IMG/VR virus record: IMGVR_UViG_3300033148_006306
Span: 1 to 52,786 of that record
Source of the DNA: a virus
DNA length: 52,786 bases
Strand: one strand, 5' to 3'
Below are positions 1,526-52,379 of the stretch, piece after piece; within the stretch, counting starts at the first letter, position 1; the number at the start of each line of letters is the position of its first letter. Both the position numbers and the translations under genes were made by a program. The notes beneath the pieces were generated by a model. It worked only from the letters and a program-made list of their open reading frames with translations. It was not told the origin of the DNA and searched no databases.

Positions 1526-3496
1526 ATGTCTCACCTAATAAGCCACTATGACCCATCATTACTAAACATCCTAAAGTGGGAAAAGGACATATCCACAAAA
1601 GAGTGGTGTGAAAACAACGTGTATCTCCATACAGATGCTTCACCTACTCCTGGTATGGTTAGGTTTGATGATACTCCACATATTGAAGAGGTGTTGCGAG
1701 ATTTTGATAAAAACTATGTATGGAAACAGCTTTTAAACTGGTCTACACAAACAGGTAAAACTTTTACTATGCAGTGTGCTTGGGCTAAGAGTATGGACAC
1801 TGACCCAGCAAGAGTACAGTGGTCTATAAAAAACAAGAATGATGTTGGAGATTATCTTGAAGAAAAGATATATCCATTTCTTCGTGGAGTAGATTCTCTT
1901 CAGAAAAAGATTATAATTTTAAGTGAAGAAAAAAAGAAAAAACTCAAAGCAGCATCCATAAACATACCAGGTGGAGGTACAACTTTTACTGGTACAACAG
2001 ATGCAGAACTTAGGTCAAAGTCAGCAAAGTATGTTTTTGCAGATGAAATAGCCCTTTATGATAAGGGTAATTTTATAGAGCTTGAGGGTAGAACAAAAGC
2101 CTTTGAGAGACACTTTCGTAAGATAATGGCAGTTTCATCAAGAAAACATCTTAATGATGAAATGGATGTGAACTATAAGACATGTGAGACAGTAAAAGAA
2201 TGGAAAACATACTGTCAAGAGTGTGAAGAATTCTTTTATGCAGGAAGCAAACATCTAAAGTTTATGACTAAAACAGAGTTTATGCAGAAGTTTGACCAAA
2301 AAGAAGAAACATACAATGTTCAGCAGCATGTAAAAGAAGCACTAAAAGACATCTATATAGAATGTCCAAATGAAGAGTGTGAGCATCACATAAGTAATGT
2401 TGAAAAAGATAAAAATATATATGACAGAAAATATAAGTTTGAAATAGTCACCGGTGACGAAGATGGAAGAACGATAGGTTATAAAGCAAACGCTCTTGCA
2501 GTAAGGATAACATCGCTTGAAATCATAGTCTCACTTCTCATAAACGCTGAATATGAAGATGACCAAGATGTGCTCCATCAGTTATATATAGACTACTTTA
2601 ATGAGTTTTATGAAAAAGAATACCACACAGCAGATCAAAACGATATGCTACTACTTGGAAACGGAGTAAAAGAGTACATAGTACCAAAAGACACAGTAAA
2701 GATATATCTCACCATAGATAACCAGATGGACTACCTCTTCGCACAAATAACAGCAGTTGGATATGGAGTAGTGCCACATGTAATGTACTTTGGAAGAATA
2801 GAGACTTGGAGCGATGCTGAAGCACTGTGGGAAATATGTCAATACCTAGAAGACGAAGACGGTGAAAACTACATGGCATCAAAGATGGGTATAGACAGAC
2901 GTGGATATAATGAGGGTCAAATAAGCAGAACAGACGAGGCAGACGCTTTTGTAAACTATATGACTCAAAAATGGGGAGAAGATAGAGTTTATGGGATGGA
3001 AGGTCACGCTGGTTTAACCGGTGGAAAATCTTTTGCAGTAGTAAATCACAAAGACTACTCAAACCAAAGACACGAACTAAAGATAAAGATCATAAAATTC
3101 TCAAATCTATACATCAAAAACCAACTCTTCAGAAGCATAGAAAGAACCATAATAAAAGCAAAAGCTGAAAAAGAAGAAGATGACGGCTTTAACTACAACG
3201 GAAAACTCTTTTACATAAACCAAGACAACATAGACAGAGACATAAAAGGCACTACAAACCTCTCAATAACAAAAATGCTCACAGCAGAAGTCCTAGACTA
3301 CGCAAAGCACCCAAAAACAGGAAAACTAGCACCAGAAAAAAGCTGGATACCAATAAGAAAAAGAAATGATGCAATAGACACATCAACAATGGCACTAACA
3401 TTCGCAGAGATGGATAAAATAATCCTAATGAAAAAACCATCAGGTGAAAACCTAGAAGCAGCACTAAACCAACTAGGAGACTTAGACTTTTCTTGA
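1526..3496 (+). CDS. terL: terminase large subunit (GpA-like)
   Basis: 656 residues, the usual size for lambda GpA (641). The packaging ATPase has a Walker A-like S-T-Q-T-G-K-T at 73-79 and a Walker B-like F-A-D-E-I at about 171-175. The nuclease half starts with the acidic strand Y-L-T-I-D at 394-398. The enzyme cuts at cos and pumps DNA into the prohead through the portal. It starts immediately after the YopX-like stop codon. Its TGA stop is part of the promoter dyad at 3493-3506. Confidence 0.93.
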   Translation: MSHLISHYDPSLLNILKWEKDISTKEWCENNVYLHTDASPTPGMVRFDDTPHIEEVLRDFDKNYVWKQLLNWSTQTGKTFTMQCAWAKSMDTDPARVQWSIKNKNDVGDYLEEKIYPFLRGVDSLQKKIIILSEEKKKKLKAASINIPGGGTTFTGTTDAELRSKSAKYVFADEIALYDKGNFIELEGRTKAFERHFRKIMAVSSRKHLNDEMDVNYKTCETVKEWKTYCQECEEFFYAGSKHLKFMTKTEFMQKFDQKEETYNVQQHVKEALKDIYIECPNEECEHHISNVEKDKNIYDRKYKFEIVTGDEDGRTIGYKANALAVRITSLEIIVSLLINAEYEDDQDVLHQLYIDYFNEFYEKEYHTADQNDMLLLGNGVKEYIVPKDTVKIYLTIDNQMDYLFAQITAVGYGVVPHVMYFGRIETWSDAEALWEICQYLEDEDGENYMASKMGIDRRGYNEGQISRTDEADAFVNYMTQKWGEDRVYGMEGHAGLTGGKSFAVVNHKDYSNQRHELKIKIIKFSNLYIKNQLFRSIERTIIKAKAEKEEDDGFNYNGKLFYINQDNIDRDIKGTTNLSITKMLTAEVLDYAKHPKTGKLAPEKSWIPIRKRNDAIDTSTMALTFAEMDKIILMKKPSGENLEAALNQLGDLDFS

Positions 3497-3534
3497 TATA
3501 GGTCAATGACTTTCACAAAAAAAAGCTATACAAT
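3493..3534 (+). promoter_or_regulatory. dyad-type promoter, first cargo operon
   Basis: TTGATATAGGTCAA at 3493-3506, then 22 bases, then TACAAT at 3529-3534. The dyad resembles FNR/CRP-family sites and its centre falls near -41 from the expected start. The terL stop codon lies within it. It drives the gene at 3553. Confidence 0.8.
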
Positions 3535-3552
3535 GCTACAAAAGGATGCAAA

Positions 3553-4092
3553 ATGAACAAACATAAATTTGAAAACCCAAAAGCAGACGTAATACTAAAA
3601 GATGAAGAGGCTGTGATATATCTAAACTACTTAAAAGACAAAGGCTATGATTCAATAGATGAATTGGTAAAAAAATATAAAAATGAAGTTCAAGAAACCA
3701 CAGATAGATTAAAATATTTACGCGTAAGTTATCGTATGGAGCAAGGAATCAACAATGACATCAAAGAGGTGTTATATGGATTAAGCAGCAGACTTTCTTT
3801 ATATAGGGTTTATGGCTACGAACTCCACATGCGAAGAGAGCGTTATGTACAAGTAGCTATCGCATATATTTCCAAGAATCAGGCAGATATAGAAAGAATA
3901 CATAAATTATTTGCCGATGTTATCAAAGATAAAGCAAACGAGTTAGCCTCAGAAGCAATAGAAGAAAGACAAAAGCTATGTGATGAAGATAACAGGCTAA
4001 CAAAGCTAGAATACAAACTAAAACTCTCTAAATGGGAAAAAACATTCTGGAGAAGAGTCTTTAAAAAATTGTTTATGAAAAAGAAAACTTAA
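3553..4092 (+). CDS. hypothetical helical protein
   Basis: 179 residues, unrecognised. It is rich in K, E and R with long predicted helices (about 35-70 and 110-165) and a basic C-terminus ending K-K-K-T, which suggests nucleic-acid or protein binding. RBS AAAGGA precedes ATG. It is the only gene between two dyad promoters, so it forms its own transcription unit. Its TAA stop lies inside the next dyad. Confidence 0.7.
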   Translation: MNKHKFENPKADVILKDEEAVIYLNYLKDKGYDSIDELVKKYKNEVQETTDRLKYLRVSYRMEQGINNDIKEVLYGLSSRLSLYRVYGYELHMRRERYVQVAIAYISKNQADIERIHKLFADVIKDKANELASEAIEERQKLCDEDNRLTKLEYKLKLSKWEKTFWRRVFKKLFMKKKT

Positions 4093-4130
4093 TATAAGTC
4101 AAGGACAAAGAAACCAAAATAGTATATAAT
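4089..4130 (+). promoter_or_regulatory. dyad-type promoter, second cargo operon
   Basis: TTAATATAAGTCAA at 4089-4102 (one change from the consensus), 22 bases, then TATAAT at 4125-4130. The upstream gene's TAA stop is within the dyad. It would drive the overlapping gene chain from 4154 to 7863. Confidence 0.8.
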
Positions 4131-4153
4131 TTGGGTAAAGATTAGGAGATATT

Positions 4154-4405
4154 ATGAAAAAGCAAGACATCGCAGATATTACAGATTTTTTAGATACTGA
4201 AATCTGTGATTATGATTTAGAATATGATTATGAGATAGTAGATGATGTGATGCTAGTAACATTTATAGGGCACTTTACAAGCAATAGTGAAATTGAAATG
4301 ACTTTTAGATGTGTTGGTGGAAATCCTGAGTTTTATGGACTATGCGATAGCTACATTCACGCTGATACTAGAAGCTTCTGGATTAACTTTATGGGGAGTT
4401 TATAG
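4154..4405 (+). CDS. hypothetical acidic protein
   Basis: 83 residues, very acidic N-terminal half (many D and E), predicted alpha then beta. No family recognised. Good RBS (TTAGGAGA) before ATG. First gene of the operon behind the dyad promoter at 4089. Small acidic phage proteins often mimic DNA or inhibit host enzymes, but nothing here proves that. Confidence 0.65.
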   Translation: MKKQDIADITDFLDTEICDYDLEYDYEIVDDVMLVTFIGHFTSNSEIEMTFRCVGGNPEFYGLCDSYIHADTRSFWINFMGSL

Positions 4406-7342: not shown

Positions 7343-7863
7343 TAGAAAGTAAAAAAGTTTTATATTCAAAAGGCAATAGTGACGAGCAATACACACCTGC
7401 TTATGCAGTAGAGCCTATCTTAGAGTTTATTCCAAAAGATGCTATAGTTTGGTGTCCATTTGATAAAGCGGACAGTGAGTTTGTAAAACAGATACGCAAA
7501 AAAGGAAACACAGTAATAATAAGCCATATAGACGATGATAAATGCTTTTTTGAATACGAACCTGCCGAATGGGATATTTTAATCTCAAATCCACCTTTCA
7601 CAAACAAGCGTAAGTATTTTGAGAGAGCATTGAGTTTTAACAAACCTTTTGCTTTAGTAATGACAAATACTTGGCTAAACGACTCAGCACCAAAACAACT
7701 CTTCAAATACAAAGACTTACAACTACTGATGTTTGATAAAAGAATGAAATTTGTAAATCCTGATGGCAGAGCAAATAATAAAATAACTTTCAGCAGCAGC
7801 TACTACTGTTGGAACTTTTTACCAAAACAAATAATAATGAAAGAATTAGTGATAAAAACTTGA
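7339..7863 (+). CDS. putative small DNA methyltransferase (NPPF type)
   Basis: 174 residues. N-P-P-F at 84-87 is the catalytic motif IV of N6-adenine and N4-cytosine methyltransferases. Upstream W-C-P-F-D at 38-42 sits where the AdoMet motif should be, but lacks the usual glycines. The layout (short, V-I-x-S-H-I before D-I-L-I-S-N-P-P-F) matches a family of compact phage methylase-like proteins. Activity is uncertain given the poor AdoMet motif. Last gene of the operon; its TGA is inside the dyad at 7860. Confidence 0.6.
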   Translation: MIESKKVLYSKGNSDEQYTPAYAVEPILEFIPKDAIVWCPFDKADSEFVKQIRKKGNTVIISHIDDDKCFFEYEPAEWDILISNPPFTNKRKYFERALSFNKPFALVMTNTWLNDSAPKQLFKYKDLQLLMFDKRMKFVNPDGRANNKITFSSSYYCWNFLPKQIIMKELVIKT

Positions 7864-7901
7864 TATGAATCAAGGCAATAAAACCAAACCTATGTAATAA
7901 T
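7860..7901 (+). promoter_or_regulatory. dyad-type promoter, third cargo operon
   Basis: TTGATATGAATCAA at 7860-7873 (an exact FNR-type TTGAT-N4-ATCAA), 22 bases, then AATAAT at 7896-7901 (TAATAA one base earlier). The methyltransferase-like gene's stop lies in the dyad. Drives the gene at 7919 and those after it. Confidence 0.78.
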
Positions 7902-7918: not shown

Positions 7919-8131
7919 GTGAAACTCTGGGAAATATATTTTCATAGCGTAATGTGTTTTGAGAAAGGTCTTTATGTCTTACAGTCAGAAAATGAACCAA
8001 CAGAAGAAGAATGTCTAAAAGCACTATATGAAAACACATACACCGGAACAATCTACTTCGAGTCAGTAGAAGAGATAACCGAAAAAGAACTAAGATATAA
8101 AAAATACACACTAATGCAGAAGGATAATTAA
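7919..8131 (+). CDS. hypothetical protein
   Basis: 70 residues, GTG start with AAAAGGA upstream, unrecognised. First gene behind the dyad promoter at 7860. Confidence 0.6.
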   Translation: MKLWEIYFHSVMCFEKGLYVLQSENEPTEEECLKALYENTYTGTIYFESVEEITEKELRYKKYTLMQKDN

Positions 8132-8876: not shown

Positions 8877-9221
8877 ATGATAATCTACAGTAAAAACGAA
8901 AACTACAAAATATGGGCAAACACAAAAGATTTTACATTTCATATCCAGATGGAAGGTCAAGAGATAGAAGAAGAAGGCTATCAAACATCAGGACTAGCAA
9001 TAGAACAAGCGGAACAAAACATACCAAAAGAAGTAGCGATAACTCTAACAAAATGCTCAACACCTAAAACAATGAAGTGTCCTCTGTGTGAAGACTGCAT
9101 AAGAAACCAACCCTCAACACACCAACTAGAAGACTATGAACAGTTCAACCCAAAGAAAGCACCAATGCGACCTTGGATTTGTGATGGCTATGAACATAAA
9201 GACCAAAAGAGTCTACTATGA
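8877..9221 (+). CDS. cysteine-rich hypothetical protein
   Basis: 114 residues. Second half has C-P-L-C-E-D-C at about 68-74 and a further Cys near 101, suggesting a zinc or iron-sulfur site. AAAAAGGA precedes ATG. It overlaps the next Cys-rich gene by four bases. Confidence 0.6.
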   Translation: MIIYSKNENYKIWANTKDFTFHIQMEGQEIEEEGYQTSGLAIEQAEQNIPKEVAITLTKCSTPKTMKCPLCEDCIRNQPSTHQLEDYEQFNPKKAPMRPWICDGYEHKDQKSLL

Positions 9222-10137: not shown

Positions 10138-10487
10138 AATCTAAACACGGGAACACAAAAACTTTTAGAATAATAAAGGGAGAGAAAGTTCCCTTTGATA
10201 GTTTCAAAGAAGCAAATCGTTTTGACCAACTATATCTACTAGCAAAAGCTAAAAAGATTTCACAGCTTACTATCCAACCAAAATACCTATTAATGGAAGC
10301 CCAAACACACAACGGTTTCACATACAAAAGCGTTTCATACATAGCAGACTTCAGATATATAAAAAACGGAAAAACAATCGTAGAAGATGTAAAATCAGAT
10401 CACACAAAGAAACTAGCCACATATAGAGTTAAGATAAAATGGTTTCTATCTCTCTATGGAAAAGATCTAACTTTTATAGAAACTTGA
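10134..10487 (+). CDS. DUF1064 family nuclease-like protein
   Basis: 117 residues. Key positions of the PD-(D/E)xK-like DUF1064 pattern are present: F-K-E-A-N-R-F (Glu26) near the N-terminus, Y-I-A-D-F (Asp72), then V-E-D-V-K-S (Glu84-Lys87) and T-x-x-Y-x-x-K-I-K. Members are small phage endonuclease-like proteins, probably acting on recombination or replication intermediates. Last gene of the cargo region; its TGA lies in the dyad at 10484. Confidence 0.75.
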   Translation: MKSKHGNTKTFRIIKGEKVPFDSFKEANRFDQLYLLAKAKKISQLTIQPKYLLMEAQTHNGFTYKSVSYIADFRYIKNGKTIVEDVKSDHTKKLATYRVKIKWFLSLYGKDLTFIET

Positions 10488-10524
10488 TATAGGTCAAGAA
10501 GATACTTTTGGAATATGTTATACT
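10484..10524 (+). promoter_or_regulatory. dyad-type promoter of the leader/tRNA-like transcript
   Basis: TTGATATAGGTCAA at 10484-10497, 21 bases, then TATACT at 10519-10524. Drives the leader peptide and the long noncoding stretch containing the tRNA-like element. Confidence 0.78.
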
Positions 10525-10573
10525 TATACTTTCAATTCGATAAAAAGATATAAATTCAAAAGAAGGAGAGACT

Positions 10574-10627
10574 GTGAAATTCAAACCAATCGGTTATTTT
10601 CCAACTATAAATAAAAAAAGAAAATAA
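10574..10627 (+). CDS. 17-residue leader peptide
   Basis: GTG start preceded by AGAAGGAGAG, among the strongest ribosome sites in the window. The peptide is basic (ends K-K-R-K). It is followed by hairpin-rich RNA rather than a gene, so it may be a translated leader that controls folding or decay of the transcript. It could also be a truncated gene. Confidence 0.4.
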   Translation: MKFKPIGYFPTINKKRK

Positions 10628-11014
10628 TCTGGTCATCGTGCTGCAAAAAATGAAGTCCAACTTAGATGTTGGTCAAAGAAAACAAGTTGTAGGTAGCCTT
10701 AAAATGAAGATATTAGGCTTTGTAAGTAAACCAAACATTCTCCTGCAAAACACTAAGACTTTTTATGAAGCATCTATTCTAAGTAGTTGTTTCTCCGAGA
10801 GTTTCTCGGTTTGTGTCAAATCCTTAAATCCAGAAGTCTTTTCTTCTGGATTGTTTATGACATAAGAACTTTTGATGGAGCAGACAGACATACCAAGATG
10901 TTGAGAGACGGCAACCACTTAGATTAACTTCAATGGCTAGACTTGAAGAAACTACTAACGAGGATACAAATCAAGCAATGCTCTCAGTCTGTTTCACAAA
11001 GAGTTTAAGCATAC
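10628..11014 (+). other. hairpin-rich noncoding stretch
   Basis: No convincing gene. The one open frame (10638-10865) has non-coding-like composition and no RBS. Hairpins seen: CCAAC/GTTGG, CCGAGA/TCTCGG, ATCCAGAAG/CTTCTGGAT (near 10829-10852) and CTTCAA/TTGAAG. It lies downstream of a dyad promoter and upstream of the tRNA-like element, so it is probably part of the same primary RNA. Confidence 0.5.
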
Positions 11015-11139
11015 GCACCATTAGCTCAGTTGGTTAGAGCAGATTGTAGGTCTGAAAAACCTCAAATACACAAGATGATACTAATTTCATCGTATTAGAA
11101 AACAGTCACAGGTCACTGGTTCGAGTCCAGTATGGTGAG
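11015..11139 (+). tRNA. tRNA-Phe(GAA)-like element with enlarged arms
   Basis: Acceptor GCACCAT at 11015-11021 pairs with ATGGTGA at 11132-11138 except the first pair. D-arm GCTC/GAGC at 11024-11040 has the A-G-x-x-G-G-x-x-A loop. T-arm ACTGG/CCAGT with loop TTCGAGT lies at 11115-11131. The anticodon loop CTGAAAA at 11052-11058 gives GAA (Phe), but its stem has a bulged T and three extra pairs (11044-11046 with 11063-11065). The variable region is about 49 nt and holds a stem (AATAC plus GATGA with TCATC plus GTATT, 11065-11096). No CCA is encoded. It may be a degenerate tRNA or a tRNA-like RNA. Confidence 0.55.
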
Positions 11140-11211: not shown

Positions 11212-11248
11212 TTGACTTATGTTAATATCCTACATTTTATGATATAAT
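11212..11248 (+). promoter_or_regulatory. reversed-dyad promoter of the portal operon
   Basis: TTGACTTATGTTAA at 11212-11225 (the dyad in the opposite orientation, one change), 17 bases, then TATAAT at 11243-11248. This shorter geometry is shared only with the other virion-gene promoters at 15451 and 23377. Drives gpW and portal. Confidence 0.78.
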
Positions 11249-13879: not shown

Positions 13880-15420
13880 TGGCAGAGCCAACACCAACAG
13901 AAGTAGAACATAAAGACATAGAAACAGATGGAATACATATTCCTCATTCATTTAAAGTAGCAGACCAAACAGCACTTGATGCGTTAGAAGTTACAGTTGA
14001 TGATTTAGATAAGCTAATATTAAAACAAGATGATGGGACATATTATCGCATCAAAGGATACAGTCCTTTAGTTTATCAGCAAAATACTTTAGAAGACTAT
14101 GTAAGCTTTGTAGGAGAACAGACTGTGCTTACTGGTATAGTAGAAATCGAAGACATATTATCAATCAATGCCAATACTACAAAAATAGATATTATCCCAT
14201 TCACATACTGGATAAAAGGCAAAAAATATTCATACTCAGGTGCTACTGCTATATCACCAACTATCGCAAGTGGAGATAGTTCGACATTCGTTGGTGTAGA
14301 TGCAAGTTCAATAATTTATAGTGATGTTAAATTTACACCCGAAGATACAGCAACTATATTACCTCTAGCAAGAATACAAACCGTGCAAGGTCAAGTAGGA
14401 CCAGGAAGCAATTTACAATCTCCAATACATCTTACTTTCCCTATAGGTCAAGAGGGGCACAAAGAAAGAGAGTGGATAGAAAATACAATAGGGGTCTTAT
14501 ACTCTGACGGTGGATTGTATACAGAAAATGAAACTACTCCTTTGCAAGTAGATCAATCATTAGGAAGTTTTCATAATGCACAAAGAAAACATATAGACAT
14601 TGCTCAAAGTAATAACATTGAAGCATCAAGTGTCTATCATACAGGAGGAGTGCCAGCTCCTCATATGAGAACAACTTTAGTGATTCCTAAGCATTGGGAT
14701 AATAAAACAGATATAGTGGCATTGACAGCAAATAAATTCGTGTCACACACACTATTAAGAAGTCCTAAACAAGAAGATTTATTTTTCTTAATCTACGGTA
14801 CTAAAGAATATGATTCACAAGCAGATGCAGAAAATGCTAATCCAGATTATAGTGTTTTTACAAGTCAAAAAGAATCAGGACTTTATAAAGTTGCTCGTTT
14901 TATAGTAAGAGGAGACAGCACAAACATTGAAGCTATACAAGACGAAAGACCAAATATAATATTAGAAGATGAGTCTACAGGACTAGGACTAAAAGAAAAC
15001 TCATATAGCTGTATGTATATGGATACACCCGAAGAAACAACTATAACAACAGCAGGTGTTTTTGTAAAAGTAGCAGGAACAACCGGAGAAGTAGCAAGTT
15101 CAGCAGACTTTACAGTAGAAACAAATAGATTTACTTACACAGGAGAAATTACTAGAAGATTTAAACTAGATATAGTTTCAAGCCTAACAAGCATCAATAA
15201 TAATCAAGTAGTAAGAGCTAGATTCGCAGTTAATGGTGTAACAATGGCAGCAAGTGAACAAGAGAAGACAGGAGTTGGTACTAATGTTGGTACAATACCT
15301 TTAAGCTGTATGCCGGAACTAGCACAAGGTGATTATGTAGAATATTGGATAGCTAATATAAGCGGAACAGGCAATTTGCAAGTAAACTATATGAATATGA
15401 ATTTAACATCAGTTGATTAG
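13879..15420 (+). CDS. fibre-like structural protein (head fibre candidate)
   Basis: 513 residues, rich in T, S, D and beta structure. The last 120 residues (from about 390) look like a C1q/TNF-like jelly-roll head domain (repeating hydrophobic strands, M-A-A-S-E, then G-T-x-x-V-x-Y-M-x-M near the end). Overlaps the collagen-like gene by one base. Lambda has no gene of this kind between portal and protease. Together the two genes suggest an external head-surface adhesin. Confidence 0.6.
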   Translation: MAEPTPTEVEHKDIETDGIHIPHSFKVADQTALDALEVTVDDLDKLILKQDDGTYYRIKGYSPLVYQQNTLEDYVSFVGEQTVLTGIVEIEDILSINANTTKIDIIPFTYWIKGKKYSYSGATAISPTIASGDSSTFVGVDASSIIYSDVKFTPEDTATILPLARIQTVQGQVGPGSNLQSPIHLTFPIGQEGHKEREWIENTIGVLYSDGGLYTENETTPLQVDQSLGSFHNAQRKHIDIAQSNNIEASSVYHTGGVPAPHMRTTLVIPKHWDNKTDIVALTANKFVSHTLLRSPKQEDLFFLIYGTKEYDSQADAENANPDYSVFTSQKESGLYKVARFIVRGDSTNIEAIQDERPNIILEDESTGLGLKENSYSCMYMDTPEETTITTAGVFVKVAGTTGEVASSADFTVETNRFTYTGEITRRFKLDIVSSLTSINNNQVVRARFAVNGVTMAASEQEKTGVGTNVGTIPLSCMPELAQGDYVEYWIANISGTGNLQVNYMNMNLTSVD

Positions 15421-15450: not shown

Positions 15451-15487
15451 TTGACCTATATCAATAATTACAGAATTAAGGTATAAT
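15451..15487 (+). promoter_or_regulatory. reversed-dyad promoter of the protease/capsid operon
   Basis: TTGACCTATATCAA at 15451-15464, 17 bases, then TATAAT at 15482-15487. Drives the protease/scaffold, decoration and capsid genes. If TTGACC were read as a -35 box the spacing would be 25, too long. Confidence 0.8.
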
Positions 15488-17280: not shown

Positions 17281-18306
17281 ATGATAACATTAGATATATT
17301 TAAGCAAGATGCTTTTTCAGCAGTAGAACTGACTAATTTTGTTAGTAAGCAACCATTTATTCCATCTCTTTTGAGAGATATGAACTTGTTTGCAGACAAA
17401 CCGGTGAGAACAACAACAATATGGGTAGAATTAAAAGATGGAAAAATCGCTTTAATCCCTACTTCAGAACGTGGTGCTCCAATCTTTCAAAGTGAAAAAC
17501 AGAAAAGAAGAGCTGTATCACTGCAAACAGTAAGACTTGCAAAAGGTGATAGAATCACATCTTCTGAACTTCAAGACATTCGTGCTGAAGGTGAAGCAGA
17601 AGAACTTAAAGAAGTTCAAGTAGAAGTTACTGACAGACTAGACATCTTAAGTGGCGACATGGATTTAACGCATGAAAACTTATTTCTTGGAGCAGTTCAA
17701 GGTATTCTAGTTGATGCAGATGGTTCAACTGTTATATATAATTTCTTTACTGAATTTAATGTATCACAAGCTAGTGAAGTTGATTTTGACCTAGACAATG
17801 CTACTCCTGCTTCTGGTGCATTGCTAACGCTATGTATGGGAATTCAAAGAAGTATGCAACGTGCAGGTCAAGGTGCATATTTACCTACTACTGAGGTTGT
17901 TGCACTTGTTGGTGATGCTTTCTGGGATGGTCTTATTGCTCATACAGAAGTTAAAGGTGCATATGACAACTGGGTTGCTGCACAAGCTTTCTCTAATGAC
18001 AAGAAAGCTTTTGGAGAGTTTTACTGGGGTGGAATCAACTGGATTAATTACCGTGGTACGGATGATAATTCGACTGTAGCTATTGGCACAGACAAAGCTA
18101 AGTTTTTCCCTCGTGGAGCAAGAGGTGTGTTTGAAAACGCATTAGCACCATCAGAATCTTTTGAGTTTGTTAACAAAAAAGGTTTACCTAGATATGCAAT
18201 GGTTGTTCCAGACTTGCTGAGAAATGAGTATGTTGACGTAGAAATAAAATCTTATCCACTACCATACTGTACTCGCCCAGAGATGTTACTAAGAGGTAAG
18301 AGGTAA
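17281..18306 (+). CDS. major capsid protein (gpE-like)
   Basis: 341 residues, equal to lambda gpE (341), same order after the decoration protein, and the gpE-style P-V-R-T-T-T-I-W start region and F-P-R-G-A near 270. RBS GGGAG. It has the HK97-like capsid fold by family. Codon use is the most host-adapted in the window, as expected for a very highly expressed protein. A hairpin overlaps its stop codon. Confidence 0.88.
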   Translation: MITLDIFKQDAFSAVELTNFVSKQPFIPSLLRDMNLFADKPVRTTTIWVELKDGKIALIPTSERGAPIFQSEKQKRRAVSLQTVRLAKGDRITSSELQDIRAEGEAEELKEVQVEVTDRLDILSGDMDLTHENLFLGAVQGILVDADGSTVIYNFFTEFNVSQASEVDFDLDNATPASGALLTLCMGIQRSMQRAGQGAYLPTTEVVALVGDAFWDGLIAHTEVKGAYDNWVAAQAFSNDKKAFGEFYWGGINWINYRGTDDNSTVAIGTDKAKFFPRGARGVFENALAPSESFEFVNKKGLPRYAMVVPDLLRNEYVDVEIKSYPLPYCTRPEMLLRGKR

Positions 18307-22614: not shown

Positions 22615-23277
22615 CTATATAGTAAAGTTTTTTGTATGCTCTAATTTATGGCAGATGATATAACTATCATAAGCAGTTGCTCCATCTATAGGTAAATCAA
22701 AATATCCAAGATGTATTCTTCTGTAATTAACAGTAATAGATGCAACCCATTTTTGAGCGGATTTATTATACCAAACACCTCTATATCCACTTGTGTTATT
22801 TTTTCTTATTCTCCTAGTATTTCTTGCTTGAACAATTCTAGTAGTCCACTTGCAGTTGTGGGGAGTATAATCTTTATCATTATTTTTTCTTTCGAGAGTT
22901 AAACTGTCTTTATAGCCATTGGCAAGTGCCCAAGTTTGAAAAATGGCAAAATCTATTCTCCATTCATCGCAGATATGAATATTTCTTTTGCCATAGTCAA
23001 CAAAACTCTTATTGTTAGGATTGTAGCATCTAGCTTTCATGGTGTTCCATACATCATATAGTTTTGATTTTCTGCCACCATGTCTAGTCATGGCACAACT
23101 CTTGCAAGATTTTATTTTTCCTCTTTTAATACTATTAGCCATGGTTTTAAATTCAGCGTTGCACACTTGACATAATACCAACCAATATCTTGATTTAGTT
23201 TTACTAGAAGCATTTGCATAAGAGTAACCTAAATCCTTTAAAAAAATAGGTGTAGTTTTTTTGATTGTTTTATCCAT
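22615..23277 (-). CDS. HNH homing endonuclease with AP2 domain
   Basis: 220 residues. N-terminal zinc ribbon (Cys36, 39, 58, 61), HNH-type core around 125-155 (L-E-R-K-N-N-D ... P-H-N-C-K-W-T), then an AP2 DNA-binding domain at about 161-210 (S-G-Y-R-G-V-W, H-L-G-Y-F). Free-standing homing nucleases of this type cut phage DNA lacking the insertion and spread by repair. It lies antisense between GT and the tape measure and uses the divergent dyad promoter at 23377. Confidence 0.85.
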   Translation of the reverse strand: MDKTIKKTTPIFLKDLGYSYANASSKTKSRYWLVLCQVCNAEFKTMANSIKRGKIKSCKSCAMTRHGGRKSKLYDVWNTMKARCYNPNNKSFVDYGKRNIHICDEWRIDFAIFQTWALANGYKDSLTLERKNNDKDYTPHNCKWTTRIVQARNTRRIRKNNTSGYRGVWYNKSAQKWVASITVNYRRIHLGYFDLPIDGATAYDSYIICHKLEHTKNFTI

Positions 23278-23349: not shown

Positions 23350-23414
23350 ATTATAGCATAAGACATACAAAAAGTCTTGACTTATATCAATATTCATAAG
23401 AATTTAGATATAAT
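23350..23414. promoter_or_regulatory. divergent promoter sharing one dyad
   Basis: One dyad, TTGACTTATATCAA at 23377-23390, serves both directions. Plus: 18 bases to TATAAT at 23409-23414, for the tape measure. Minus: 21 bases to TATAAT at 23350-23355, for the endonuclease. The minus side has the long geometry and the plus side the short one, as at other sites. Confidence 0.8.
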
Positions 23415-36535: not shown

Positions 36536-36994
36536 TCATCTATCTTTTATATACTGTAAAATAACTCTCTCGTCATGAGATCCAACTTCTCTCACAATTT
36601 TAATTAGCCATCTGCTAATACGCCAAAACTCCCACATAGTAGAACTGATGGTATTTGACAAAACAGAAAACCATTTGTTTCTAAATAACCTATTACAAAA
36701 AAAGTCACTATAAACCGTAGAACTAACTTTACCACCAAGTGCAGCAATAAGCCTCGCAACAGCACTAGCGTTCCCATCAAAAAACTCAGACAACTCAAAA
36801 AAGTTCTCCTGAGCCTCTTCACGAACTCTACGAGCAAAAGCATCTCTGCGAATAAAATAGTTTTCATCAATCACAGCAGGAAAAACCTCTCTACTAAGAA
36901 CACCATCAGCAAACTCACGCTGATAGACATTCATAGTAGAAACACCATGTCTAAGACAAAACTCTTTAACGGTGATGAAATTGGCTGTCTTCAC
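36536..36994 (-). CDS. hypothetical HTH-like protein
   Basis: 152 residues from GTG 36994 (GGGGA upstream; the ATG at 37042 would overlap the preceding gene by 46 bases). N-terminal F-I-T-V-K-E-F-C-L-R-H-G-V-S resembles a helix-turn-helix start, the rest is basic and aromatic. Possibly DNA binding. Last gene of the minus-strand operon, six bases from the convergent endolysin gene. Confidence 0.55.
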   Translation of the reverse strand: MKTANFITVKEFCLRHGVSTMNVYQREFADGVLSREVFPAVIDENYFIRRDAFARRVREEAQENFFELSEFFDGNASAVARLIAALGGKVSSTVYSDFFCNRLFRNKWFSVLSNTISSTMWEFWRISRWLIKIVREVGSHDERVILQYIKDR

Positions 36995-36996
36995 TA

Positions 36997-37158
36997 CTAT
37001 CCCCAAATATATTGAGCCGAACATAAAATAATAATAAACCAAAAAACAAACACTGTTTCTCCGGAAAGCTTCCCAAAACTATTTCCATCCTTGACCATAA
37101 GCAATGTTCCTAATATTCCCCAAATACTTAATAGGAATAATCCCCACGCAATAATCAT
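36997..37158 (-). CDS. small membrane protein, two segments
   Basis: 53 residues with hydrophobic segments at about 2-21 and 34-48 separated by a polar loop. ATGA overlap with the upstream gene, and its stop is two bases from the next start, strongly supporting translation. Confidence 0.65.
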   Translation of the reverse strand: MIIAWGLFLLSIWGILGTLLMVKDGNSFGKLSGETVFVFWFIIILCSAQYIWG

Positions 37159-37453: not shown

Positions 37454-37705
37454 CTATTTTCTCCCTAGTTTTTTAATATCACGAAATCTTTTCTTAGAAA
37501 TAATGCCCTTCGGCTTCTCTTTCACTTTACGAGCAAACTTAGCAAGTTTTGAATTATCATCTAAATCAACTTTTGTTTTATTTTCAATATGTTCAAAAGC
37601 TTCTTTATTTGCTTTGCCCTGTGGAACACGCTTCCAAAAATCATCATCTTTCTCAGCAGAAGTTAATTCATGTAACTCTTTTATTTCACCAGTATCTATG
37701 TTCAT
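37454..37705 (-). CDS. hypothetical protein
   Basis: 83 residues, charged, acidic first half and lysine-rich second half, probably extended or helical. First gene behind the dyad promoter at 37735-37776. Unrecognised. Confidence 0.6.
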   Translation of the reverse strand: MNIDTGEIKELHELTSAEKDDDFWKRVPQGKANKEAFEHIENKTKVDLDDNSKLAKFARKVKEKPKGIISKKRFRDIKKLGRK

Positions 37706-37734: not shown

Positions 37735-37776
37735 ATTATAATACAACTAAAACCAAATAGCCTTGACATGTATCAA
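37735..37776 (-). promoter_or_regulatory. dyad-type promoter downstream of ssb
   Basis: On the minus strand: TTGATACATGTCAA (37763-37776), 22 bases, TATAAT (37735-37740). Lies two bases after the ssb stop codon. Confidence 0.8.
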
Positions 37777-39471: not shown

Positions 39472-39569
39472 TTCATCTCCCTTATTTTCATTTGTCTATA
39501 TTGCTCTTTCAACATCAAAATATCTAACTGCCACTTAACGAACCATATTTTAGTGTCAAAAGTGTCCAT
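39468..39569 (-). CDS. small helical peptide
   Basis: 33 residues, one amphipathic W/K/L-rich helix. It overlaps both neighbours by 4 and 14 bases (ATGA at the end). The RBS is modest. Confidence 0.45.
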   Translation of the reverse strand: MDTFDTKIWFVKWQLDILMLKEQYRQMKIREMK

Positions 39570-39744
39570 TAGATCTCTTTTTTTCTATCACTTCTAAAGC
39601 TTCATTAATAAATGCACAAGCTATCTCAATCTGTGCCATTATTATACCTCTCACATATTCAGCATTATGGTCTTTTTCTCTCTGTAAGCAATCAGCCCTA
39701 CTTTGAAGAACTAAAGGAGCTATTCTATTAAAAACTTTACTCAT
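39556..39744 (-). CDS. hypothetical protein
   Basis: 62 residues from ATG 39744 (AAGGTGG upstream; the longer frame from 39774 would include the promoter). Helical, unrecognised. First gene behind the dyad promoter at 39763-39804. Confidence 0.6.
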   Translation of the reverse strand: MSKVFNRIAPLVLQSRADCLQREKDHNAEYVRGIIMAQIEIACAFINEALEVIEKKRSNGHF

Positions 39745-39762
39745 TTTTTCCACCTTTTTAAA

Positions 39763-39804
39763 ATAGTAACACAATAAATACTAAAAGTAATTGACTTATA
39801 TCAA
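39763..39804 (-). promoter_or_regulatory. dyad-type promoter
   Basis: Minus strand: TTGATATAAGTCAA (39791-39804), 22 bases, TACTAT (39763-39768). Lies three bases after the stop of the zinc-ribbon gene at 39808. Confidence 0.8.
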
Positions 39805-39807
39805 GAT

Positions 39808-40110
39808 TTATTTCTTACACCCACAGCTTTTAATCCTACCGGTTTTGACATAAGAAAGCAAAACTCTCCATGTCTCACCACATCTAGGACAAATACACAT
39901 AGAAGTAACTCTGTTGTCAACTGTTTTGTTTTGACCAAAATACCTAACACCATTTGCAATAACTTCTCCAAGCTTGTATAGATGCTGAAGTGCAGGTTGT
40001 GGCTTCTCAACTTTCTTTTTAAGTACACCAATAGCCTCAAGACACTCAGTAACACTACTATCTGTATCATTATCATCGTCTTCTATAAAATGTTCACTTA
40101 CTCCATCCAT
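39808..40110 (-). CDS. zinc-ribbon protein related to the endonuclease N-terminus
   Basis: 100 residues, acidic first third, C-terminal C-I-C-P-R-C-G and S-C-G-C-K-K. Its last 30 residues resemble the zinc ribbon of the HNH-AP2 endonuclease at 22615 (both have T-G/R-G-R/K-I-K-S-C). Could be a DNA-binding remnant of such a nuclease. Preceded by a dyad promoter. Confidence 0.6.
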   Translation of the reverse strand: MDGVSEHFIEDDDNDTDSSVTECLEAIGVLKKKVEKPQPALQHLYKLGEVIANGVRYFGQNKTVDNRVTSMCICPRCGETWRVLLSYVKTGRIKSCGCKK

Positions 40111-40119: not shown

Positions 40120-40338
40120 TTAAATATAATCAAAGTATACAACAATCTCAAACCAATTACCTTGACACAAATCAAGAAAGTAAAGAACGGCTGCTATTAC
40201 TCCAGTCCCCAAAAGAAAAAGAAACAAAGTAATAAGAAGCACAATAGGAGGAGACAAACACCTAACCTCCACCTCAAACAAAACAACCCTATAGCCAAAC
40301 AAGAGAAAAATAAACTCAATCCTCTCAAACAGCCACAC
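40120..40338 (-). CDS. possible membrane protein
   Basis: 72 residues with two hydrophobic stretches (about 6-20 and 32-56), GTG start without a clear RBS. It runs through the dyad promoter at 40134-40175, which argues against it. If not real, 40176-40362 holds no other gene I can support. Confidence 0.3.
   Translation of the reverse strand: MWLFERIEFIFLLFGYRVVLFEVEVRCLSPPIVLLITLFLFLLGTGVIAAVLYFLDLCQGNWFEIVVYFDYI
40134..40175 (-). promoter_or_regulatory. dyad-type promoter
   Basis: Minus strand: TTGATTTGTGTCAA (40162-40175), 22 bases, TATACT (40134-40139). Drives the zinc-ribbon gene at 40110. Confidence 0.78.
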
Positions 40339-40362: not shown

Positions 40363-40947
40363 CTACCCTTTAAATTTCCAAATAAACTTACCAGCGGTCT
40401 TTAGTTGACCTCGACAACAGCCACTAATGTTTTCTTTATAGACACCAGAACACTTACCAGCCTCATAAATAGAATGAAAAGTTGCTATAAGTCTGCCATC
40501 TAAAGAATACTGAGAGACAGGTCTGCAAAGCTCATCTCTGTTTTTATGTGGAGAGTTGTGACCCTTAACCATATTTTCTCTCCATACCATAACTTGAATA
40601 TTATTAAAAGAATATCCTTCATCATCCTTAAGCCTATCAACAGAAGGGGCTAATTCTCTTTCAAAGTTACTATCAATCCAAGCAGAGTGAATGATAATAA
40701 ATTTTGGTTTAGATAAACACCATACTCTAAGTTTATTAAGAGAATAAGCAGGCATCAGATGTCCTCTATACCTACTATTTCTTCTTTGAGCACTATAAAT
40801 TTTCCTAACAACACCCATAAGAGTCCGAGAATCATCAGTAACACATTGCTTACACCAATGTTGCAAACCATCCTTCTTGCTCCCATTAAGAGAGAACAGC
40901 TTTATAGAAACATAACCCTTACAATAAGAACAGTATTTAGTTTTCAT
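40363..40947 (-). CDS. HNH homing endonuclease with NUMOD domain
   Basis: 194 residues. N-terminal C-S-Y-C and W-C-K-Q-C zinc pair, HNH-like middle (S-V-D-R-L-K-D-D-E-G-Y-S-F-N-N-I-Q near 117-133), then a NUMOD1-like recognition domain (V-S-Q-Y-S-L-D-G-R-L-I, then S-I-Y-E-A). Likely a free-standing homing nuclease. ATG 40947 chosen; GTG 40956 also possible. Overlaps the ribbon-helix-helix gene end. Confidence 0.75.
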   Translation of the reverse strand: MKTKYCSYCKGYVSIKLFSLNGSKKDGLQHWCKQCVTDDSRTLMGVVRKIYSAQRRNSRYRGHLMPAYSLNKLRVWCLSKPKFIIIHSAWIDSNFERELAPSVDRLKDDEGYSFNNIQVMVWRENMVKGHNSPHKNRDELCRPVSQYSLDGRLIATFHSIYEAGKCSGVYKENISGCCRGQLKTAGKFIWKFKG

Positions 40948-41071
40948 TAGTAGCACACTTCTTAATTAATAGTCCTATGGCATCAGAAAGAGTCTTGCAA
41001 TCATTTTCTAACTTAATCCTCTGCAACTCTTTATAAACATCTCTCTCTATCTTCATTGTAACTTTGTCCAA
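40937..41071 (-). CDS. ribbon-helix-helix DNA-binding protein
   Basis: 44 residues from TTG 41071 (AAGGA at good spacing). Beta strand D-K-V-T-M-K-I, then two helices (E-R-D-V-Y-K-E-L-Q-R-I-K, and T-L-S-D-A-I-G-L-L-I-K-K) match Arc/CopG repressors. Such dimers bind short inverted repeats. It is a candidate regulator of phage genes, including the dyads, but that is speculation. Confidence 0.65.
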   Translation of the reverse strand: MDKVTMKIERDVYKELQRIKLENDCKTLSDAIGLLIKKCATNEN

Positions 41072-43377: not shown

Positions 43378-44190
43378 CTAAAATAAAGTAGCTTTAACAT
43401 TTTCAACATTTGTAATGTAATACTCTTGATTCACTTTCTCTTTTTTACTTATTTTTTGATATAAGTCTTCAAAGAAATGTACACGCAAGTCTTTAGTTTT
43501 TAAAAAGTTATACACTTTATTTTCTTTGCCATTTAAAACACCACTAATCCCAAACGATATGTCGTTTTCAATAAGATAGTCTAACATCACAATAAGCTTT
43601 TTCTCATTTTTATCACTCCAAAAAGCATTATATCCAGCTTGAGTATTTGAATAAGGCGGATCAAGATACACAAAACTATCTTCTTGTATCCCGATATCGC
43701 AAAAGGGCAAAGAAGTGAACTTAACATTTGAATAATCCATAGTCTTATACATGTTAATCTTCTTTTGAGTGTTTGAATTAAAACATCTTTTACCCCAAGT
43801 TTGATTAAATTTAAAATCATTATTAAATCTCATCATATTTGAGTTGCAAGACCAGATAAGAGCCAAGAGCCTATCTCCACCACCACAAAGATTGTATTCC
43901 TCTCTTAGCCTCAAATACCTCTCTTGACTTTCTTTAGTAGGCATAGAAAAATGACGAGCATACTCTACAAGAGTGCCTGCATCAGCTCTTAGTCTTTCAT
44001 GTATGTCTCTAAGATCAACAAGAATATCATTTGCATAAACAGTATCATAAAGATGAGCAACATTCATATAAACACTACCACCACCGGTAAACATATCGTA
44101 AAACACACTTTTATCTTTAGGAAACAAAGGAATAAGCCTATCTAAAAGCTTATACTTAGAACCCATGTAGTTTATAGGACTTTCAATCAT
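43378..44190 (-). CDS. dam: DNA adenine methyltransferase (D12 class)
   Basis: 270 residues, T4 Dam-like size. AdoMet motif D-M-F-T-G-G-G-S at 32-39, catalytic D-P-P-Y at 177-180, and P-I-N-Y-M-G-S-K-Y at 5-13. It methylates N6-adenine, likely in GATC, and can protect against host restriction. ATGA-type overlap with the preceding gene, terminator after. Confidence 0.88.
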   Translation of the reverse strand: MIESPINYMGSKYKLLDRLIPLFPKDKSVFYDMFTGGGSVYMNVAHLYDTVYANDILVDLRDIHERLRADAGTLVEYARHFSMPTKESQERYLRLREEYNLCGGGDRLLALIWSCNSNMMRFNNDFKFNQTWGKRCFNSNTQKKINMYKTMDYSNVKFTSLPFCDIGIQEDSFVYLDPPYSNTQAGYNAFWSDKNEKKLIVMLDYLIENDISFGISGVLNGKENKVYNFLKTKDLRVHFFEDLYQKISKKEKVNQEYYITNVENVKATLF

Positions 44191-45036: not shown

Positions 45037-45816
45037 CTACACCATATCAGCAGCAGGAAACTCTTGCACCTTTTCAAATTTATAACTTCCACTAGGTTTA
45101 TGAGCACCCCACTGCTTAAAGAAAAATGGAACATCATTAGCTTTACAGTCATTATAAATCTTCTGCACCCACTCAGGCTTCATCTCACGGACTTTAGACT
45201 TAGCACCACTCTCGCCACCAACTATAACCCAGTCAAGCATCTCTATTAGTTTTGTTTTAGCACCATCGTTTAAGTATGGGAATGGGTGGTGTCCTCTTTT
45301 ATCTTGAAGATAGTAACAGTTAGTATCTATTTCTCCTATCATTGGCTCAACACTTACAAAGTGAACTGCTGCTGGAATTTTTACAAGTGTTCTCACTCTG
45401 TCTAACTCTTTTTCATTCTCAACTGTTACTCCTAGCCATAGGTTTTTAGGAACTTCAAAAACTTCGTTATATCTATCAAAAAACTTCTTCATTCTCAAAG
45501 GTCTTTTGGTTAGCATTTGAAAAGTGTGCAAAGGATTGCCTGTAACAGTAACCATTATTTTTGCAAACATCTCATAAGTTACTTCATCTTGAAATAAATC
45601 AGTCATACTACCTACAAAAATCATCTTACCTTTTTTCTTTTTGTATGGTCCAATCAGCCTATCTTCATGAAAAACAATATCACTAAAAGAAGTATCGTTA
45701 AATCTCTCGTGTACTATCTTCGCATAACAATTTTTACAACCATCACTCACAGCAGTACAACCAGTAATCGGATTCCAAGTGTAATCAGTCCACGCTATAT
45801 TAGTTTTGTTCATCAT
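45037..45816 (-). CDS. DUF5131 (phage Gp37/Gp68) family protein
   Basis: 259 residues. Signature W-T-D-Y-T-W-N-P-I-T-G-C at 9-20 and D-G-C-K-N-C-Y-A at 25-32 (Cys20, 27, 30), then V-G-S-M-T-D-L-F-Q and Q-M-L-T-K-R-P. The three-Cys layout recalls radical-SAM proteins. Members are frequent in phages with unknown function. G-G-E-S-G-A near 200. Confidence 0.82.
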   Translation of the reverse strand: MMNKTNIAWTDYTWNPITGCTAVSDGCKNCYAKIVHERFNDTSFSDIVFHEDRLIGPYKKKKGKMIFVGSMTDLFQDEVTYEMFAKIMVTVTGNPLHTFQMLTKRPLRMKKFFDRYNEVFEVPKNLWLGVTVENEKELDRVRTLVKIPAAVHFVSVEPMIGEIDTNCYYLQDKRGHHPFPYLNDGAKTKLIEMLDWVIVGGESGAKSKVREMKPEWVQKIYNDCKANDVPFFFKQWGAHKPSGSYKFEKVQEFPAADMV

Positions 45817-47506: not shown

Positions 47507-47939
47507 CACTATCTCCTTCCAAAAGTAAGTGGTTACTCCACGCAATCTCTCTACACTCTTCTCTACTCTTTTTAACAGCACTATACCCTACTACATGTAT
47601 AAGACCATGACAATCTACACAAATGTTAATAAGATACCTATCATCTTTAACACCTAAACCCTGTACTACATGATGTGGAGCATCTAACTCATAACTAATA
47701 TCACATACTTGACAAGCACCAAGACCACGAACAGCCTCTTGTCTCTCACGATATTTAGCTTCCGGAAACCGAACAGCCTTGTCAGGATTCAGCCCAACTT
47801 TTTTAACCCCAGAATCCAAAAAACTATTTTTTGTCTTTCCTTTTCGATTACGACCTTTAGCTTTAAATGGTTTTTTAACACAAAATGTACTTTTAGGCTT
47901 GTCGCCTTTTATTCTACCGGTTTTGATTTTGTAGGGCAC
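47496..47939 (-). CDS. HNH endonuclease-like protein
   Basis: 147 residues. Basic start of 60 residues, then C-Q-V-C at 76-79, H-H at 89-90, C-V-D-C-H at 107-111 and His115, the zinc-bound HNH fold of small phage nucleases. Could be a recombination or packaging nuclease rather than homing. Overlaps both neighbours. Confidence 0.75.
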   Translation of the reverse strand: MPYKIKTGRIKGDKPKSTFCVKKPFKAKGRNRKGKTKNSFLDSGVKKVGLNPDKAVRFPEAKYRERQEAVRGLGACQVCDISYELDAPHHVVQGLGVKDDRYLINICVDCHGLIHVVGYSAVKKSREECREIAWSNHLLLEGDSDEI

Positions 47940-48222
47940 GTTTTTCCACCTCTCTAAGTTTTTTAGAAATAATCATAAGGTTACTTCTAATTTTCATAGC
48001 ATTTTCTCTACCAACCCACTCTCTGCCACACTCTGCAATAGCACTCTCAATATAACGAATAGACAAAGCACAGTTAATCTTCATACCAATAAAATCTGCT
48101 CTCTCGTTACTAAACTCAAGCAGTTCATGATACTTCTGAAAGTTTCTAAAATTATCCTTACAAAAAGCACCCTCACCACCATACAAACTCAATGCTAATA
48201 GCATCACTAATAAAATCTTCAT
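47914..48222 (-). CDS. secreted hypothetical protein
   Basis: 102 residues with a Sec-type signal: K at 3, hydrophobic 4-14, then G-G-E-G-A. The rest is helical and charged with four Cys (two likely disulfides). Exported to the periplasm; exclusion or lysis roles are possible. Confidence 0.65.
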   Translation of the reverse strand: MKILLVMLLALSLYGGEGAFCKDNFRNFQKYHELLEFSNERADFIGMKINCALSIRYIESAIAECGREWVGRENAMKIRSNLMIISKKLREVEKRALQNQNR

Positions 48223-48366: not shown

Positions 48367-48408
48367 ATTATAACCTAAACCACAACCCTTTCCCTTGACT
48401 TATATCAA
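48367..48408 (-). promoter_or_regulatory. dyad-type promoter
   Basis: Minus strand: TTGATATAAGTCAA (48395-48408), 22 bases, TATAAT (48367-48372). Drives the membrane and secreted protein genes. Confidence 0.82.
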
Positions 48409-48414: not shown

Positions 48415-48439
48415 AAAAATTGGTGGCACTAACTACTAC
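48415..48439 (-). repeat. dispersed intergenic repeat, copy 1
   Basis: Plus-strand AAAAATTGGTGGCACT followed by AACTACTA. Lies right after the stop of the gene at 48429 on the minus strand. Other copies: 49296, 49545, 50048, 50521. Confidence 0.6.
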
Positions 48440-48707
48440 TCTCAATCTCTTCAGCAAGTAGAGCAACAGCCTCTTCTTTTAAACTAGCATACATCAATGC
48501 AGCACTATCTCTTTTTTTATAACCTCTAATAGTGTTAATACTAACACCTCTTAACCTCGCAATATCAAGATCACTAATAACAACACTACAATAGTTAAGA
48601 AGAGCAAGTCTACCACCCTTCTCAAGTGCAACAATAGTTTTCCAACTCTTCGTATGATAAGCAATAGCAACACCAGAATATAGCTCTGTAAATTCTTTTC
48701 TAGTCAT
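48429..48707 (-). CDS. HTH-like protein
   Basis: 92 residues. D-I-A-R-L-R-G-V-S-I-N-T-I-R-G-Y-K near 47-63 fits a helix-turn-helix, so it may be a small DNA-binding regulator. Overlaps the previous gene by eight bases. Confidence 0.6.
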   Translation of the reverse strand: MTRKEFTELYSGVAIAYHTKSWKTIVALEKGGRLALLNYCSVVISDLDIARLRGVSINTIRGYKKRDSAALMYASLKEEAVALLAEEIESSS

Positions 48708-51454: not shown

Positions 51455-51467
51455 AGCTATACAGTAC
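51455..51467 (-). promoter_or_regulatory. repeated promoter-like 13-mer, copy 2
   Basis: AGCTATACAGTAC again, about 40 bases upstream of the gene at 51417. Confidence 0.4.
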
Positions 51468-51504
51468 CAACTATAAAAAGTTAGTACAATATAGATATAA
51501 AACA

Positions 51505-51963
51505 CTATTCAATGTCATTATTGCTTAGTTCTTCTATGATACTGTATAATTCATCATCTGCAAACTTTAATCTATTATAAGTGTCTTTACATCCCTTATA
51601 CGCATTAAGACCATTTTTAAAGTTTTTAAGTTCTTTATCGGTTAGATATTCTTCAGCATATGAACTGTTTTTAAGTAAAAAATTATAATCACTTTTTAAA
51701 TAACCAAATTCAGAAAAAAAACTAGCTTTGTCATCTTTATAATCTAAATAAGATAAAGCATCTGAAATAACACATCTAAAAGCTAAAAGTAAATCTAAAT
51801 CACTCAAATCATATTTTTTAGCTTCAAAGTCAGCAATAGAGCCATAATATTTAAAAGTAGTGTGATTTACTCTTATATGATAGTGATATCTCTTTGCACC
51901 CCAATGAGTAACACCACCCAATTTAGAGTAACTTAATTTATATTTTAAAATTAATTCTTGCAT
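51505..51963 (-). CDS. hypothetical protein
   Basis: 152 residues. Start has H-W-G-A-K-R-Y-H-Y-H (20-29) then a helical rest with Y and D. Overlaps the previous gene by one base. Unrecognised early-region protein. Confidence 0.6.
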   Translation of the reverse strand: MQELILKYKLSYSKLGGVTHWGAKRYHYHIRVNHTTFKYYGSIADFEAKKYDLSDLDLLLAFRCVISDALSYLDYKDDKASFFSEFGYLKSDYNFLLKNSSYAEEYLTDKELKNFKNGLNAYKGCKDTYNRLKFADDELYSIIEELSNNDIE

Positions 51964-52277
51964 TATAAATCCTTTTTTCTGTTTACATCATATACAATAG
52001 AATCAAATTTACACTTGATAATATCTTCACATACTGTATATAAACAAGCATATTTATTACTTTTAATTTTAGTGTTTAGTTGTTTGCTAAATACTTCTTT
52101 AATTAAATAGTTTAAAGCCGTGCTTTGAAATTGTGAATCATAACCATAGTTAAACGGTACTTTATAAACAAAATTACCATTAATATATATCTCTACACTA
52201 TGATAAGTATTTCCATATGTACTTTGAAACCATCTACGACCAATAACTTTAATTTCTTTTATATCTCTAGTAACCAT
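51963..52277 (-). CDS. conserved phage hypothetical protein
   Basis: 104 residues. The start (G-R-R-W-F-Q-S-T-Y-G-N-T-Y-H-S-V near 13-28, then G-Y-D) is a pattern I recall in many phage genomes, function unknown. First gene behind the dyad promoter at 52338. Confidence 0.65.
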   Translation of the reverse strand: MVTRDIKEIKVIGRRWFQSTYGNTYHSVEIYINGNFVYKVPFNYGYDSQFQSTALNYLIKEVFSKQLNTKIKSNKYACLYTVCEDIIKCKFDSIVYDVNRKKDL

Positions 52278-52337
52278 AATAACACCTCTTAAAATCTAAA
52301 ATATAAGTGAATAAACACTTAATAAAACCATATATAA

Positions 52338-52379
52338 ATAATAGCTTTATTAAATGTATATAGCCTTGATATAAATCAA
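52338..52379 (-). promoter_or_regulatory. dyad-type promoter near the right end
   Basis: Minus strand: TTGATTTATATCAA (52366-52379), 22 bases, TATTAT (52338-52343). Lies two bases after the stop of the first leftward gene, so that gene is separated from the rest by a regulated promoter. Confidence 0.8.

Follow-up and report, generated by a model that had tools for sequence, protein, structure and literature searches.

One question raised by the virus record IMGVR_UViG_3300033148_006306 of IMG/VR, which was analysed here over its entire length (52,786 bases, 34% G+C; hereafter the window), is which protein reads an inverted repeat of the type TTGAT-N4-RTCAA (hereafter the dyad) that stands at a fixed distance from -10 boxes along this genome. 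Its gene content (gpA-type terminase, portal, ClpP-type head protease, capsid protein E and tape measure) is that of a tailed phage, and no near-identical DNA was found in the phage collection. The answer that we regard as likely is that the dyad is the box of a host regulator of the Crp/Fnr superfamily, used by the phage as a transcription switch with two geometries. Ten perfect dyads of the form TTGAY-N4-RTCAA (TTGAYNNNNRTCAA) are present in the window (1.9 per 10 kb), together with two near-perfect ones, whereas 0.36 were expected from 100 dinucleotide shuffles (maximum, 3); the reversed pattern, used as control, matched once. The consensus of the phage sites is CTTGATATARGTCAAG. A promoter class built on this dyad had been proposed earlier (hereafter the original prediction). 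All ten dyads listed there were present at their coordinates, and a position weight matrix built on them scored the true sites at 20.8 or more; the best unrelated site scored 15 and had no -10 box.

In each of the ten listed sites a -10 box follows the dyad after 21 or 22 nt, as predicted (hereafter geometry A). The statement that five of the minus-strand sites have exactly 22 nt was also correct (37763, 39791, 40162, 48395 and 52366), with 21 nt at the remaining one, 23377. This spacing would place the centre of the dyad at about -41.5, in agreement with the class II activator position near -41 that had been suggested. The class II boxes of FNR are centred between -40.5 and -42.5, typically at -41.5 (PMC7713065), and the published DNR box, CTTGATnnnnATCAAG (PMC1274295), agrees with the phage box including the outer C and G. 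Thus, the sequences are those of an FNR/DNR-type dyad (TTGAT-N4-ATCAA or a close variant), and the promoters resemble in their layout the class II promoters of E. coli FNR, Pseudomonas DNR and the Campylobacterota paralogues: (C)TTGAT-N4-RTCAA(G), 21-22 nt, a predicted centre at about -41.5 and no -35 hexamer. The A promoters of the window are the following.

3493..3534, plus strand: A promoter, 22 nt to TACAAT, before the gene at 3553; the dyad lies at the terminase gene's 3' end
4089..4130, plus strand: A promoter, TTAATATAAGTCAA (half-site TTAAT), 22 nt to TATAAT, before the gene at 4154
7860..7901, plus strand: A promoter, 22 nt to AATAAT, before the gene at 7919
10484..10524, plus strand: A promoter, 21 nt to TATACT, before a region of small open reading frames (ORFs) and a tRNA-like gene (10.5-11.1 kb)
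23350..23390, minus strand: A promoter, same dyad as 23377, 21 nt to TATAAT, before the HNH endonuclease gene 22615-23277
37735..37776, minus strand: A promoter, 22 nt to TATAAT, before 37454-37705, immediately 3' of the SSB gene
39763..39804, minus strand: A promoter, 22 nt to TACTAT (4/6 only), before 39556-39774
40134..40175, minus strand: A promoter, 22 nt to TATACT, before 39808-40110
48367..48408, minus strand: A promoter, 22 nt to TATAAT, before a short ORF and 47914-48222
52338..52379, minus strand: A promoter, palindromic dyad, 22 nt to TATTAT, before 51963-52277

A second arrangement, overlooked in the original prediction together with the perfect dyad at 15451 and the near-perfect one at 11212, is seen when the dyad is read on the opposite strand (TTGAC-N4-ATCAA side). 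In this geometry B, 16-19 nt separate the dyad from a perfect TATAAT, which is preceded by TTTAGA, TTATGA, TTAAGG or similar. By the usual numbering the centre of the dyad is placed near -36.5 versus -41.5 for A, half a helical turn nearer to the start. A -35 hexamer inside the dyad was considered and ruled out, the B-side TTGAC being 25 nt from TATAAT. Three B promoters were identified in the window.

11212..11248, plus strand: B promoter, imperfect dyad TTGACTTATGTTAA, 17 nt to TTTATGATATAAT, before a 71-aa gene and the portal gene
15451..15487, plus strand: B promoter, TTGACCTATATCAA, 17 nt to TATAAT, before the head maturation protease gene (15520)
23377..23414, plus strand: B promoter, TTGACTTATATCAA, 18 nt to TTTAGATATAAT, before the tape measure gene (23444)

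The dyad at 23377 is bidirectional, with geometries A and B reading divergently from one site. On its minus strand, the dyad at 15451 has a weak A-side -10 box (TATTAG, at 22 nt).

Further contigs carrying the dyad were found by pattern scans of viral contigs and among terminase relatives. The 12 dyad-bearing contigs, all metagenomic and mostly incomplete, represent at least two lineages: a siphovirus-type set (G002, G277, G281 and G288/G307) that has terminase, portal or tape-measure genes in common with the window, and a set with contractile tails, recognised by the tail sheath (G003/G004/G005/G007/G274), plus G271 with two sites. A looser pattern gave 45 IMG/VR hits, many of which represent a small number of recurring sequences with one site each and some of which lie in GC-richer DNA; these were not counted as dyad phages. 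The dyads are not a trait of the terminase family, an explanation that was ruled out by terminase relatives of up to 46% identity (L095 and others) without dyad promoters. After removal of near-duplicates, and counting -10 boxes with at least 5/6 matches for A and exact TATAAT for B, the TTGAT-N4-GTCAA reading led to a -10 box at 21-22 nt in 23 of 29 sites (p about 1e-36 against the genome-wide hexamer background), and the TTGAC-N4-ATCAA reading to TATAAT at 16-19 nt in 9 of 28 (p about 5e-17, or 3e-8 with a tenfold background). These p-values assume independent sites, which is untrue for related phages, and the contrast was judged big enough to survive it. Over the 12 contigs, when exact TATAAT is considered, the association of the GTCAA side with 21-22 nt and of the ATCAA side with 16-19 nt never swaps. 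Positions are also conserved: the site at 3493 has an orthologous site at 24679 of the relative G002, where the arrangement at 15451 is repeated as well, at 15202, and a minus-strand site at 20785 resembles that at 10484 and lies upstream of tRNA-Met.

The two geometries stand before different genes. In the window and in the other dyad phages, all B promoters with a readable downstream gene head virion operons, the first genes being those for the head protease, the portal with a small upstream gene, the tape measure, the tail chaperone and, in G003/G007, the small leading gene of the tail-sheath operon. The first gene behind an A promoter is in no case a recognised virion gene. These promoters stand before small genes of unknown function, genes for HNH endonucleases or a DNA methylase, and tRNA regions; their -10 boxes are often imperfect, with no -35 hexamer. 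The A genes may be early or accessory, though most of their products belong to no known family. A plain promoter of the sigma70 type leads the minus-strand block, and since it has no box, at least one candidate promoter would be independent of an activator.

52589..52617, minus strand: plain sigma70-type promoter without dyad, TTGACT-17-TATAAT

Downstream of the A promoter at 10484 there is a 125-nt tRNA-like gene (11015-11139, plus strand; Rfam tRNA, 34.6 bits; no ARAGORN call), with the anticodon loop TTGTAGG (GTA, Tyr by eye) and a variable region of apparently about 60 nt. Two related phages have an A promoter ahead of a tRNA or tRNA-like gene: the window, at 10484-11139, and G002 (L042 510-585). 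In G288 an A promoter (18078-18119, minus strand) precedes the gene of a 276-aa lipoprotein-like protein (MKKIIASFMLIVGMFTFQGC...), an odd cargo for a phage. Elsewhere in the window, a DUF5131 / phrog_2045 protein (45037-45816, minus strand), of a phage family without known function, is encoded near a D12-class adenine methylase (43378-44190).

The next question is whether a bacterial regulator uses the same box. The SSB protein of the phage shares 72-78% identity with the SSB of one Campylobacterota clade, versus about 48-68% in most others, suggesting that the host is a member of that clade. Campylobacterota had been named in the original prediction as the genomes to scan for FNR/CRP regulons. 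Fifteen genomes, the majority from that clade, were examined for TATAAT boxes located 8-34 nt after TTGAYNNNNRTCAA; these pile up at 21-22 nt, and the reversed-pattern controls were low. Each host genome has 0-15 boxes with exact TATAAT. Among the genes behind the boxes, identified by sequence, are those of the periplasmic nitrate reductase NapA, MoaA, the anaerobic ribonucleotide reductase (nrdD) and NnrS-type proteins; cytochromes (multihaem and small ones), porins, a radical SAM protein and the Crp/Fnr regulators are also encoded there. The spacing of 21-23 nt dominates over 16-19 nt both in these genomes and in a scan of 397 Campylobacterota genomes, where CTTGAC-N4-ATCAA with exact TATAAT occurred 17 times at 21-23 nt and 5 times at 16-19 nt; on the same side the phages have none at 20-23 nt and nine at 16-19 nt (Fisher p = 1e-4). 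Geometry B is thus not a common promoter class of host chromosomes. The strict pattern matched three times in the genomes of 85,000 species, and two of the matches lie in an anaerobic or nitrogen-oxide context: an NnrS cluster in a Sulfurovum metagenome-assembled genome (MAG), and hemN adjoining a Crp/Fnr gene in a gammaproteobacterial MAG.

Each of these host genomes encodes 1-5 Crp/Fnr proteins. In FNR, the helix pattern E-x-x-S-R reads TTGAT, and the recognition helix PETLSR, which fits this pattern, is present in many Crp/Fnr proteins of the host clade. Several of the host Crp/Fnr genes adjoin dyads with TACAAT or TATAAT at 22 nt. FNR proper, the oxygen sensor with a [4Fe-4S] centre, has an N-terminal group of cysteines plus one more cysteine. 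The Campylobacterota regulators that were inspected have 0-2 cysteines and lack this N-terminal cluster; they therefore do not qualify as strict FNR and are DNR/NNR-like at best. Among solved structures, the proteins closest to them are Crp/Fnr proteins of diverse kinds, DNR and an FNR-type regulator included, and our best guess from their sequences is a DNR/NNR-like role in the response to nitrogen oxides or redox state. Of the two host regulators envisaged in the original prediction, the redox type is thus supported, by these helices and by the same box at 21-23 nt before anaerobic and nitrogen-oxide genes, and the cAMP type is unlikely, the half-site being TTGAT and not TGTGA.

How might a single protein serve both geometries? 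We propose that the phage boxes would be bound by an anaerobic or nitrogen-oxide regulator of the DNR/NNR-like kind, encoded by the Campylobacterota host and bearing the FNR-type recognition helix. At geometry A (-41.5) the bound host protein would be a class II activator of non-structural genes, and at geometry B (about -36.5) the box would cover the -35 region of a virion promoter of the extended -10 type that suffices by itself, where the bound dimer should block the polymerase. When the regulator is active, in anaerobic or nitrogen-oxide respiration, the A genes would be on and the B genes held down. As phage DNA builds up, the dozen boxes per genome, or an inhibitor made by the phage, would reduce occupancy, so that A expression falls and the virion genes rise, a titration step that we infer.

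Repression at geometry B is probable, since the -10 cores of the virion promoters match TATAAT perfectly, are of the extended type and are kept where the dyad is missing. The -10 core of the tape-measure promoter is found without a dyad in L095, a relative devoid of dyads, and in G277, whose four dyads lie elsewhere, and a promoter that needs activation through the dyad should not outlive the loss of it. A dimer over -43 to -30 would, in addition, meet sigma region 4, and the host scan gave no common promoter class at 16-19 nt. By analogy, moving the IscR site nearer to the -10 box converts activation into repression (PMC8561392), although those were engineered E. coli promoters and an unrelated family, whereas the phage has both spacings naturally, often from one dyad. 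Dyad-free promoter-like sites with the TTTAGATATAAT or TTTATGATATAAT core were also located at 9208 (minus) in G002, 19038 and 17982 (both minus) in G277, 17531 (minus) in G007, 6000 (plus) in G003 and 12552 (plus) in L095; those at 17982 in G277 and 12552 in L095 stand before tape measure genes.

The foremost rival, which we consider unlikely, is that the same host regulator activates both classes, the non-structural genes from -41.5 and the virion genes from about -36.5 through a different contact. The dyad is kept at 16-19 nt at several virion promoters in two lineages and so has some role there, and activation of late genes is common in phages. Against it are the retention, in G277 and L095, of perfect TATAAT cores with conserved upstream TTTAGA/TTATGA where the promoter has no dyad, the excess of 21-23 nt over 16-19 nt in host genomes, and the narrow range in which known Fnr class II sites cluster (PMC7713065).

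A regulator encoded by the phage, without detectable similarity to Crp/Fnr, that binds the dyad and mimics the host box is a still less probable explanation. The strong orientation of the dyads in phages, absent from host promoters, would fit it, as would the majority of phage genes that have no known family and two proteins whose sequences look like helix-turn-helix (HTH) proteins by eye. One of these, encoded at 36536-37042 (minus strand), has 168 aa, an HTH-like N-terminus and no Pfam or PHROG match; it is a candidate DNA-binding protein, 28% identical to one in the contractile-tail phage G274. The other, at 48429-48707, had been proposed as an HTH binder of the dyad, and matches no Pfam family; the ribbon-helix-helix (RHH) protein proposed at 40937 belongs to 40363-40956 (minus strand), which is endonuclease VII-like (phrog_1035). 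No FNR/CRP-type recognition helix was found in ORFs of at least 40 aa in the 12 dyad-bearing contigs, nor a Crp/Fnr domain by Pfam among the 20 window proteins run, in line with the earlier remark that the phage has no recognisable protein of this kind. The dyad-bearing contigs, most of which are fragments, were compared by all-against-all blastp, and no gene proved to be present in every one; the box with its 22-nt spacing is identical to that of the host regulon. Of the original prediction, the class II promoter class and the host redox regulator are supported, and the binding by small phage proteins is not.

It is very unlikely that the dyads are decoys titrating the host regulator, with an incidental promoter geometry. 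The number of good sites would suit a sponge, with roughly twelve in each phage genome compared with 0-15 boxes followed by exact TATAAT in a host genome, but a sponge requires neither fixed spacing (21-22 or 16-19 nt) nor fixed orientation. Chance in AT-rich DNA, where 34% G+C makes TATAAT-like strings frequent, is refuted by the shuffles (0.36 versus 10), by the spacing statistics of A and B, and by the site positions conserved in relatives.

Several points weigh against the host-regulator explanation. The host was assigned from one protein, and SSB genes can move. Host class II boxes have no clear orientation preference, which leaves that of the phages unexplained. Four sites (G002 23068, minus; G007 1406, plus; G274 17345, minus; G288 21185, minus) have the ATCAA side at 22 nt from an imperfect -10 box, so the orientation rule is not absolute. 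No literature on repression by the FNR family at exactly -36.5 was found, the replication-linked order of early and late genes is assumed, and the phage sites are known from sequence. The complete scheme is put forward tentatively: one host redox/nitrogen-oxide regulator would be the early/late switch, acting from a single oriented dyad to activate accessory/early genes at -41.5 and repress divergent virion genes at about -36.5, and replicating DNA would titrate it, tying virion genes to copy number and infection to the anaerobic respiration state.

The principle that a host regulator acts at phage promoters is known. In the part of the phage T1 report that was available (PMC6737242), a host Crp-family protein that senses the metabolic state of the host acts directly on several phage promoters, as proposed here; CRP there represses the pir, dam and recE promoters, and that part describes no genome-wide class at fixed distance and no virion geometry. 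Similarly, according to the available part of the GIL01 report (PMC4551915), a host regulator (LexA) at phage promoters decides the programme; that case, unlike ours, is LexA/SOS repression of a temperate phage aided by the phage protein gp7, with no activator class. As in FNR/DNR class II regulons, the putative hosts have this box before nap, nnrS, moaA and nrdD genes, but here the boxes are on a phage genome, favour one orientation and do not precede metabolic genes. Our search of the open-access literature gave no report of FNR-regulated phage promoters or of a phage organised around FNR-type boxes, and two opposed geometries that split non-structural from virion genes are not described in the literature found.

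If the proposal is true, these phages would have an early/late switch that needs no phage-encoded regulator and is open to test, and they would offer a simple natural case in which spacing sets activator versus repressor action. One host protein may then time the entire infection, and the viral lysis of nitrate-respiring Campylobacterota would be coupled directly to their respiration state.

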